Positions 19,962 to 22,748 of a DNA stretch of 47,987 nt are shown piece by piece (the stretch's first letter is position 1; every line of letters starts with the position of its first letter). The notes below the pieces were generated by a model. It was not told the DNA's origin. It made no database searches and was given only the letters and a program-made list of their open reading frames with translations. Source of the DNA: Leifsonia sp. 71-9 (GTDB taxonomy: Bacteria; Actinomycetota; Actinomycetes; Actinomycetales; Microbacteriaceae). Location of the stretch: the NCBI RefSeq assembly GCF_001898805.1, contig NZ_MKVJ01000013.1:105566-153552 (forward strand), written 5' to 3'. The translations under genes were made by a program, and so were the position numbers.

Positions 19962-20222
19962 GTGGCAAACATCAAGTCGCAGATCAAGCGCAACCGCACC
20001 AACAAGAAGGCGCAGGAGCGCAACAAGTCCGTCAAGAGCGAGCTCAAGACGGCCATCCGCGCGACCCGTGAGGCCGTTGTCGCGGGCGACAAGGACAAGG
20101 CGACCGCGGCGCTGCGCATCGCGTCCAAGAAGATCGACAAGGCCGCCAGCAAGGGCGTCATCCACCAGAACCAGGCGGCGAACCGCAAGTCGTCCATCGC
20201 CAAGCAGGTCGCCGCTCTCTGA
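19962..20222 (+). CDS. rpsT: 30S ribosomal protein S20
   Basis: Primary 16S rRNA-binding protein of the small subunit. 86 residues, very basic: [22 protein letters not shown], then [14 protein letters not shown] and [17 protein letters not shown], matching S20 throughout. The start is GTG at 19962, since the universal second and third residues Ala-Asn follow. The ribosome site is weak (GAAAG). A long structured leader precedes and a strong terminator follows, so it is transcribed alone. It normally neighbours holA; here a HelR gene intervenes. Confidence 0.98.
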
Positions 20223-20261
20223 GCAGATGACCTCCGCGGGAGCTGATCCCGCGCAGCGAAG

Positions 20262-20305
20262 AGCCCCCGCTCCCGAGGACCACGGTCCGACGGCGGGGGC
20301 TTTCT
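20262..20305 (+). terminator. Intrinsic terminator after rpsT
   Basis: AGCCCCCGC (20262-20270) pairs with GCGGGGGCT (20293-20301), followed by TTCT. The loop contains an inner GGACC-AC-GGTCC hairpin. It lies 40 bases after the rpsT stop and separates rpsT from helR. Confidence 0.85.
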
Positions 20306-20378
20306 GCATCTGAACGCGGGTGGAGCGACGCGTCCCGAGGTTGCACGCCTCCCGCATTTCCAGGATAACGGGACCCAC

Positions 20379-20398
20379 CCCGCTTGCGGCAAGGCCCC
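20379..20398 (+). promoter_or_regulatory. Rifamycin-associated element (RAE) upstream of helR
   Basis: The stretch G-CTTGCGGCAAG-GCCCC (20382-20398) matches the RAE motif as I remember it (GGGGCTTGCGGCAAGGCCCC), with only the first three G positions different. The core CTTGC-G-GCAAG is a perfect palindrome. It ends four bases before the first possible helR ATG. RAEs precede rifamycin-resistance genes in actinobacteria and mediate rifamycin induction. TTGCGG inside it could serve as a -35, with CAGAAT (20409-20414) as a poorly spaced -10. Confidence 0.8.
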
Positions 20399-20402
20399 CG
20401 TC

Positions 20403-22748
20403 ATGCACCAGAATCGGTTCCTCTCCCTCCCGATTGGACGCGCATTGACCGATTCCCCACGCTCCCCGTTCGCGCTCTCCGCTCATCCCGCCAAGGCCTC
20501 ACCCGCACTCATCGAGGACGATGAGCGACACTTCGCCCGCATCGAGCGCAGCCTGGCGGCGCAGCTCCACGAGCTGGAGCGCCGGCTCGACGCCGAACTC
20601 CGGGCGCCCCTCGGGAGCGGACAGGACGCCTACGAGCGCGACCTCGAGATCCGGAGGCTGAACGGCCGCATCCGTGTACTGCGCCGCTTCGGGCTCGATC
20701 TCTGCATCGGCCGGATCGTCGGGGACCACGAGACGCAGTACATCGGCCGGATCGGACTCGTCGACGGTGACGGCGAGCGGCTGCTGCTCGACTGGCGCGC
20801 GCCGGCCGCCGAGCCGTTCTTCGGGGCGACCGTGGTGGACCCGATGGGGGCGCTCAGCCGTCGGCGGTACCGGTGGACCGACGGGTGGATCACGGACTAC
20901 TGGGACGAGGCGTTCGCGCCCGGCAGCGCGACCTCCGGCGTCGCGCTCGACGACCAGTCGGCGTTCATCGCCAGCCTGGGGGCCAGCCGGTCACCGCGCA
21001 TGCGCGATGTGCTCGGGACGATCCAGGCCGATCAGGACGCGATCATCCGCGCCGGCGCACGCGGCGCCCTCGTGGTCGACGGCGGCCCCGGCACGGGGAA
21101 GACGGTCGTCGCTCTTCACCGGGCCGCCTACCTGCTCTACGCCGACCCGCGCCTGACGAGCGGACGGGGTGGGGTGCTCGTCGTGGGGCCGTCGCACGCG
21201 TACACCGACTTCGTGAGCGACATCCTCCCCGGGCTCGGCGAGGACGGCGTCCACACCTGCACCCTGGCGGACCTCGTCCCCGAGGGCCCGGCCGCCCGGG
21301 CAGAGCCCGATCGCCGGGTGGCGCTGCTCAAGGCCGACGGCCGTATGCCCGGCGCCGTGGAGGCCGCGATCCGGCTCTCCGAGCGGGCGCCGCAGCGCAC
21401 CACCGTGATCGACACGGCGTGGGGCGAATTACGTCTCGGCCCGGCGGAGTGGGCGGAGGCGTTCGCTGCCGCCGATCCCGCCGTCTCGCACAACGAGGCG
21501 CGCGAGGTCGTCTGGGAGGCCCTGCTCGCGATCCTCGTCGACGCGGTCGCCTCGCGCTCCTCGATCCAGGGCGACCCTGCCGGTCGCTGGGACGGCGAAG
21601 GCTGGGGCGATGCGGGAGCTGAGGTCTCGAGCCCCACCGCGGACGACGACGCGGAACGGTGGGGCTTCGATGACGAGGAGGAGTTCGACGCGTACGGCCT
21701 CACGGCCCCCGATGCGGACGCGGAGACGGTCCGGCGCGTGCTCATCCGGGAGACGCCCCTGCGCGGCCTGTTCGACACGGCCTGGCCCCTGCTCGACCCG
21801 CCTGGGGTCGTGCGTCGTCTGTGGACCTCTCCTGACCTCCTGCGCCGCTGCGCGCCCTGGCTCGACGCTGCGGAGGCGGCGCTCCTGCAGCGGGCGTCCG
21901 CCGCACCGTGGAGGCTGTCGGACCTGCCGCTCCTCGACGCGGCGCACCGGCGGGCGGGCGACCCCGAGGCGGCCGAGCGGCGGCGCCGTGCGGTCGCGGA
22001 GGCGGCCGCCGACCGGGAGGTCATGGATGACGTGGTCGAGCGCCTGATCGCGACCGACGACTCCGATCTGAAGATCATGTCCATGCTGCGGGGCCAGGAT
22101 CTGCGGGGCGTGCTCAACACGGTCGCCGTCCCGGAGGTGTCGGACACGGGCCGGCTCGGCGGCCCGTTCGCGCACATCGTCGTGGACGAGGCGCAGGAGC
22201 TGACCGCAGCGGAGTGGAGCATGCTGGTCGGCCGCGTCCCGTCGCGCAGCGTCACGGTCGTCGGCGACCGAGCCCAGGCGCGGCACGGTTTCGTGGAGTC
22301 CTGGGAGGAACGACTGGCCGGTGTCGGCCTGAGCGACGCGACGGTCGCGTCCCTCACGATCAACTACCGGACGCCGGCGCCGGTCATGGCGGAGGCGGCG
22401 CCGGTCATCCGCTCCGTCCTCCGGGATGCGAACGTCCCCACCTCGATCCGCGACAACGGCATCCCGGTGCGGCGCGCCGCGTTCGCCGATCGGGACCGCA
22501 TCCTCGCCGACTGGCTGGCGGCGCATGACGAGGGGACGGCGTGCGTCATCGGCGACCCCGCGTTCGTGCCGCGCGGTCGCGTGCGTGCACTCACGCCCGC
22601 GGAGGCCAAGGGGCTGGAGTTCGATCTGGTGGTGCTGGTCGATGACGAGGAGCTGCCGGCGACCGATCCGTTCGAGGCCGCTGTCGACCGCTATGTCGCG
22701 ATGACCCGCACGACCGGGGAGCTCGTGCTGCTGGGCCGGTCCGCGTGA
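20403..22748 (+). CDS. helR: RNA polymerase recycling motor ATPase HelR (HelD/UvrD-like)
   Basis: Superfamily-1 helicase-like ATPase of 781 residues (767 from an alternative start). HelR binds rifamycin-inhibited RNA polymerase, displaces the drug and recycles the enzyme. Walker A GGPGTGKT is at 227-234, Walker B VVDEAQEL has Asp595-Glu596, and late UvrD motifs include VVGDRAQA, INYRTPAPV and the C-terminal VAMTRTTGELVLL. The N-terminal coiled region (about 36-90) and RFGLDLCIGRI...DWRAPAAEPFFGA with DQSAFIASLG match the HelR branch as I recall it. An RAE lies just upstream. The ATG at 20403 nearly touches the RAE; the TTG at 20445 (LTDSPRSPFALS) better matches family N-termini. Convergent with holA. 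Confidence 0.93.
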   Translation: MHQNRFLSLPIGRALTDSPRSPFALSAHPAKASPALIEDDERHFARIERSLAAQLHELERRLDAELRAPLGSGQDAYERDLEIRRLNGRIRVLRRFGLDLCIGRIVGDHETQYIGRIGLVDGDGERLLLDWRAPAAEPFFGATVVDPMGALSRRRYRWTDGWITDYWDEAFAPGSATSGVALDDQSAFIASLGASRSPRMRDVLGTIQADQDAIIRAGARGALVVDGGPGTGKTVVALHRAAYLLYADPRLTSGRGGVLVVGPSHAYTDFVSDILPGLGEDGVHTCTLADLVPEGPAARAEPDRRVALLKADGRMPGAVEAAIRLSERAPQRTTVIDTAWGELRLGPAEWAEAFAAADPAVSHNEAREVVWEALLAILVDAVASRSSIQGDPAGRWDGEGWGDAGAEVSSPTADDDAERWGFDDEEEFDAYGLTAPDADAETVRRVLIRETPLRGLFDTAWPLLDPPGVVRRLWTSPDLLRRCAPWLDAAEAALLQRASAAPWRLSDLPLLDAAHRRAGDPEAAERRRRAVAEAAADREVMDDVVERLIATDDSDLKIMSMLRGQDLRGVLNTVAVPEVSDTGRLGGPFAHIVVDEAQELTAAEWSMLVGRVPSRSVTVVGDRAQARHGFVESWEERLAGVGLSDATVASLTINYRTPAPVMAEAAPVIRSVLRDANVPTSIRDNGIPVRRAAFADRDRILADWLAAHDEGTACVIGDPAFVPRGRVRALTPAEAKGLEFDLVVLVDDEELPATDPFEAAVDRYVAMTRTTGELVLLGRSA

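Follow-up and report, generated by a model that had tools for sequence, protein, structure and literature searches.

Proteins of the HelR family remove RNA polymerase stalled by rifamycin from its template and dislodge the drug. A helR gene with a rifamycin-associated element (RAE) is already known from S. venezuelae (SVEN_6029) and M. abscessus (MAB_3189c) (PMC10719064, PMC8655204), and PMC10719064 reports for mycobacteria a sense promoter whose -35 the RAE overlaps. According to a 2026 paper (PMC12802891), the mechanism by which the RAE senses rifamycins is still to be elucidated. In the literature searched, a search outside which the primary RAE papers lay, no account of an RAE mentioned a promoter on the antisense strand; the main text of PMC13246000 mentions neither HelR nor the RAE, and helD is not named in the main text of a paper on M. 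smegmatis transcription start sites.

The stretch of DNA analysed here (the window) comprises 47,987 nucleotides of Leifsonia sp. 71-9, namely G000:C13:105566-153552 in an assembly of 4,475,219 bases and 24 contigs; the named nearest relatives indicate that the organism probably belongs to Microbacteriaceae. The helR gene of the window stands between a left neighbour that we take, by eye, to be rpsT (19962-20222) and a right neighbour, on the other strand, that is presumably holA. The features discussed below, where PS and PA denote the predicted sense and antisense promoters, are:

20314..20357, minus strand: weak stem at the place of the relatives' PA hairpin (9 pairs, one mismatch allowed, long loop, without a U run)
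20362..20367, minus strand: predicted PA -10, TATCCT, 19 bases past its -35 (TANNNT here in 183 of 187 sites)
20382..20398, plus strand: RAE, 17 bases, exact match, with the core CTTGCGGCAAG at 20383-20393
20384..20389, plus strand: predicted PS -35, TTGCGG (putative function, from its position in the core)
20387..20392, minus strand: predicted PA -35, TTGCCG (putative function), overlapping the PS -35 by 3 bases
20409..20414, plus strand: predicted PS -10, CAGAAT, 19 bases past its -35 (conserved at the mirrored position in all 113 helR sites)
20445..22748, plus strand: helR, probably from the in-frame TTG at its left end (NF041254 score, tree, N-terminus alignment), in a frame open from ATG 20403
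21549..21701, plus strand: about 51 extra, mostly acidic helR codons, absent in 39 aligned HelR proteins

As in the published cases, a HelR scoring above its family cut-off has an RAE directly upstream, and this RAE covers the -35 of the promoter nearest the gene, a predicted one in the window. The helR/RAE pair of the window belongs to an already known type; what deserves pursuit is the module of mirrored promoters. The published accounts consulted (PMC10719064, PMC8655204) give two sense promoters, whereas in the window a mirrored antisense promoter is predicted; the window protein also differs from the published ones by its approximately 51 extra residues. The upstream sense start given in PMC10719064 falls about 20 bp before the RAE, and the predicted antisense start lies at nearly that place.

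The first-pass annotation had recognized a 17-base RAE match with a palindromic core, and both hold. The 17-mer GCTTGCGGCAAGGCCCC is present exactly at 20382-20398 on the plus strand as the sole match in the window at two mismatches or fewer, dinucleotide shuffles of the window giving 0.03 such matches on average, and the inner 11 bases are palindromic but for the middle one. The core has the form CTTGCSGCAAG upstream of a rifamycin-response gene; measured against a 19-bp palindrome, its outer arms are non-complementary (CCCCG before the core and GCCCC after it, compared with GGGG and CCCC in most relatives). An RAE acting as a leader-RNA hairpin was rejected on this account: the arms in the window are unable to pair, and such a hairpin is hence not general. 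The whole 4.48-Mb genome contains two copies of CTTGCGGCAAG (three of a control, the pattern read backwards). The second, on contig C22, begins 77 bases upstream of the start codon (ATG) of a gene whose product scores 803.6 bits as a Rox-type rifampin monooxygenase (cut-off 800), and both genomic cores accordingly precede rifamycin-related genes, helR and rox; no arr was found in this genome. A model of the core plus the sense half alone has two matches in the source genome and, among the matches listed, the placed one is the window site. When the 71-base module is turned into a matrix and scored in leave-one-out fashion, this site reaches 32.9 bits and the second-best place in the window -57.0; minus the core columns, the values are 12.4 and, for the next best place, -27.2. 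Identification of the element as an RAE is thus supported by its core, its flanks and its company, the genome's only other exact core being the one before rox.

That the next gene is HelR-like, as had also been proposed, is borne out as well. The frame 20403-22748 scores 1028.7 bits against NCBIfam motor_HelR (NF041254; cut-off 750), is below the cut-offs for motor_HelR_2 (382.1), HelD_MYCSM (339.8) and HelD_BACSU (82.6), and contains the DWR motif and the helicase-like ATPase motifs in full (DWRAP, GGPGTGKT, DEAQ, GDRAQ, NYRTP and KGLEFD). Phylogeny had been suggested as the means of separating HelR from a housekeeping HelD: in a tree of 58 proteins, with no experimentally studied HelR among its rows by name, the window protein falls within the 40-row HelR side (support 100/100) and the second paralogue of the genome (C9, under every cut-off) groups with HelD. 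By analogy with its family, the window HelR is expected to clear rifamycin-stalled polymerase and displace the drug; rifamycin induction and polymerase protection by this gene are predictions from its sequence. The approximately 51 extra residues, at about 383-433 of the 781-residue frame and missing from the 39 aligned HelR proteins, may possibly lie near the primary-channel loop. The HelR of another genome (G434) gave two separate partial matches, interrupted where the window HelR has its extra residues, an apparent insert. HelR above cut-off has a patchy distribution, occurring in 26 of the 150 genomes of the family and 101 of the 296 of the class. The RpoB rifampicin region of the source genome (33 residues read) probably resembles that of a drug-sensitive enzyme. 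An rpoB piece (L227, contig C24) has, within the 16 residues read of its rifampicin region, Ala at a site that we take to be Ser in M. tuberculosis.

HelR searches gathered 134 loci, 133 of them with a readable frame; both denominators retain L014, which is only 34% identical and groups with HelD, and the counts exclude L036, where the first script found no frame and the module was detected later. The core, at one mismatch or fewer, is upstream of 113 of the 133 (97 exact), and a matrix rescan adds five sites, giving 118 of 134; these five are not part of the 187 sites considered below. Among the 16 remaining HelR loci, L057 and L062 (G328 and G319) have their nearest RAE model match about 1.5 kb upstream of the HelR gene, beyond the stretch read and perhaps with an intervening gene. 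A small HelR subclade (L029, L009 and L011; support 100/100) shows no RAE module within the 1.5 kb covered to either side and offers a natural control group. The core also precedes 29 of 31 rox loci, 6 of 30 arr loci (a seventh, L195, with a one-mismatch core without flanks, was judged to be chance and dropped) and 5 of 20 class II paralogues, that is 5 of 11 in family f10 and none of 9 in other families. The mycobacterial proteins with an RAE group on the HelD side of the tree, and RAEs therefore accompany two separate branches of class II HelD, in agreement with PMC8655204.

What is conserved around the core is not symmetrical. At all 113 helR sites, offsets 16 and 20 outward from the core are A and T on both strands. 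On the antisense strand, 111 of the 113 have TANNNT at offset 15 (at most 3 at other offsets); the sense hexamer is NANNNT in all 113 and TANNNT in none. The antisense TANNNT recurs at 29 of 29 rox sites, 6 of 6 arr sites and 4 of 5 mycobacterial f10 paralogues, the fifth being shifted by one base. Over all 187 sites, which belong to helR, rox, arr and other genes, it stands 15 bases from the core in 183, the exceptions being two GATAAT and two shifted by one base, and the first base of the sense -10 is C in 166, G in 21 and T or A in none. Since the RAE sites are related by ancestry, no probability is attached to these counts. The window retains both predicted promoters, with a weak hairpin. 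A generic promoter scan of 20200-20520, with spacers of 16-18 only, found neither of them; PS and PA each need a 19-base spacer, which is outside that range. A sense promoter picked out by eye, TTGCAC-17-GATAAC at 20341-20369, was rejected, for its GATAAC coincides in part with the antisense -10 and, over the sites compared, it is the antisense TANNNT alone that is conserved.

The predicted PS also bears on the start of helR. The ATG at 20403 follows the RAE but precedes the predicted sense -10 (20409-20414) and would hence be off any PS transcript; this makes the in-frame TTG at 20445, which aligns with the N-termini of relatives, the likelier start. In 28 of the 113 helR sites a GTG or ATG comes exactly 8 bases past the sense -10 (the runner-up spacing occurs at 6 sites), the pattern that a leaderless mRNA would give. 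Neither this later start nor the antisense half of the module had been noticed in the first-pass annotation.

Taken at face value, this geometry suggests that the RAE may consist of the -35 boxes of a strong PA and a crippled PS, which diverge and overlap there. The most far-reaching reading, to which we give a probability of about 0.4, is that the RAE is a polymerase-sensing switch and no regulator's operator, the decoy PA, which would make a tiny terminated RNA, shutting the resistance promoter until drug-bound polymerase is cleared. Our preferred explanation for the window, slightly easier to believe at a little under even odds, is that helR is under the RAE module and that PA occupancy silences PS until rifamycin-bound polymerase has been cleared. 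The core would bear the -35 boxes of both promoters, each with its 19-base spacer: PA, with a full TANNNT -10, would be directed away from the gene and would make a tiny hairpin RNA in many relatives, and PS, with C or G as its first -10 base, would serve helR. As their -35 boxes overlap by three bases, PS and PA should exclude each other. A polymerase sitting on PA would then keep PS silent; rifamycin would bind this PA-held polymerase and lead to its fast removal, and PS would be freed for drug-free polymerase. Of this picture, the sequences show the module, its spacing, its asymmetry and the hairpin, whereas the activity of PA, its repression of PS, the role of polymerase as the sensor and the clearing are inferred.

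A steady-state kinetic sketch, its rate constants chosen by us, indicates what such a switch requires and not what actually happens. When the drug alters only the free-polymerase share there is no induction (28 of 28 settings at 1 or below), and plain competition for polymerase was rejected as the mechanism. With the drug also binding polymerase that already occupies PA, and this complex cleared 10 or 100 times faster than drug-free polymerase departs, PS rises at most 3.9- or 11.2-fold, respectively; with drug-bound polymerase cleared equally fast or more slowly, PS falls. HelR or HelD would be the natural candidates for the clearing factor. In three genomes (G388, G436 and G257) rox is preceded by an RAE and no HelR scores above cut-off, which rules out HelR as the sole clearing factor; in G257, no strong HelD match was found among the three candidates scored.

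The most serious competitor, which we regard as a real possibility if a somewhat doubtful one, is a dedicated rifamycin-responsive regulator that binds the RAE palindrome and controls PS, with PA a side effect or a second target. The core is indeed palindromic and overlaps the -35; the C and G at its outer ends and centre are under tighter conservation than a -35 alone would call for (exact cores at 97 of 113 sites), and PMC10719064 and PMC12802891 each propose an unknown factor. However, a symmetric site leaves the contrast between the two -10 elements unexplained (T first in 183 of 187 on the antisense side, in none on the sense side) and provides no reason for a PA hairpin RNA, and the literature searched names no such regulator.

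It is also conceivable, if unlikely, that this is an ordinary HelR gene with an RAE and that the remaining conservation of the flanks is irrelevant to drug sensing. HelR with an RAE has after all been published, with two Microbacterium genes placed in a potential HelR group in PMC8655204, and the sites share ancestry. Against this, the antisense -10 is conserved upstream of unrelated genes, and its inner bases vary: the 23 distinct antisense hexamers among the 113 helR sites show, to judge from their variety, that these bases have had time to change. A blind model, for which 73 sites supplied their core and sense half but not the antisense half, was also used to search the 296 class genomes and matched in 158 of them. 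Among the matches listed, 34 sites away from the listed helR, rox and arr places were chosen by eye, others possibly having been overlooked. All 34 have the antisense TANNNT, at 15 in 33 and at 16 in one; the script that read them demanded the sense A and T, and the sense side was thus selected and the antisense side unselected.

The frames downstream of nine of these 34 sites, picked mechanically and some of them probably wrong, were scored against NCBIfam. Two are Rph (1517.9 and 1537.8 bits; cut-off 999) and two are Rgt-like, at 676.9 and 516.4 bits and under the cut-off of 800. A Rox-like monooxygenase (L269) is at 327.4 bits, likewise under its cut-off of 800. Three others (L283, L272 and L270), from three genomes of one family, are DrrA/DrrB-like ABC exporter proteins, L283 being above the drrA cut-off (325.7 bits; cut-off 312.45) and L272 and L270 under theirs. 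L270, L272 and L283 (G203, G185 and G266; family f20) represent a candidate rifamycin exporter under RAE control. At L266 (G435, family f10), the next long frame after the RAE module has no NCBIfam family and is Amidase_2 in Pfam.

Where the antisense RNA should begin there is, in addition, a predicted hairpin. Its 5' arm is at offsets 6-13 past the antisense -10 in 111 of 151 sites, compared with 44 of 151 on the sense side, and its stem positions exchange C-G, A-T and G-C with pairing maintained; folding z scores below -2 number 66 antisense and 12 sense in the same 151 sites. A terminator with a U run is found at 39 of the 151 antisense sides, versus 1 sense and 8 shuffled (by class: 30 of 111 for helR, 9 of 29 for rox, 0 of 6 for arr and 0 of 5 for the mycobacterial f10 paralogues). 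At many sites PA should therefore yield an RNA of about 30-40 bases and little beyond the terminator. No terminator was found at the PA stem of the window, and the stem at the genome's rox copy is likewise weak and without a U run. That the hairpin RNA itself, a small RNA acting elsewhere, is the effector rather than initiation at PA seems very improbable, for while a fixed-place hairpin with exchanged pairs at 111 of 151 sites would suit it, the pairing is kept and the sequence is not, the RNA has no overlap with the PS transcript and the stem in the window is weak. PA as the promoter of a divergent gene was rejected for the window, where the left neighbour is co-directional; over 153 sites, a rough guess from codon bias makes 81 left neighbours co-directional, 63 divergent, 4 unclear and 5 too short, and it is possible that PA serves a divergent gene in some relatives.

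How does the polymerase-sensing switch compare with the described dual-promoter systems? In the B. subtilis helD/pps alarm (PMC12802891), a stronger antisense and a weaker sense promoter likewise precede a rifampicin-response gene. There the promoters converge without clash, whereas here they are predicted to stand back to back with the -35 region in common. The same paper reports that a shortened promoter distance, or clashing promoters, abolished induction in B. subtilis; the predicted promoters here diverge and do not face each other with room for both polymerases. As the promoters converge there and a clash abolishes induction, the B. subtilis mechanism is not transferable as it stands. 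The tandem promoters of M. smegmatis rpoBC at sub-inhibitory rifampicin are alike in the drug-relieved promoter interference, but both are co-directional and no RAE is described for them in PMC10719064. Should the RAE prove to be the centre of a two-way promoter, how it senses the drug can be tested by strand-specific start sites and a few reporter mutations. Were the switch real, actinobacteria would have it in common before helR, rox, arr, rph, rgt-like genes and an ABC exporter, and rifamycin would have two known dual-promoter sensors of different geometry. The actinobacterial and B. subtilis responses would then come under one principle, the drug being sensed via its target enzyme and only the promoter geometry differing.
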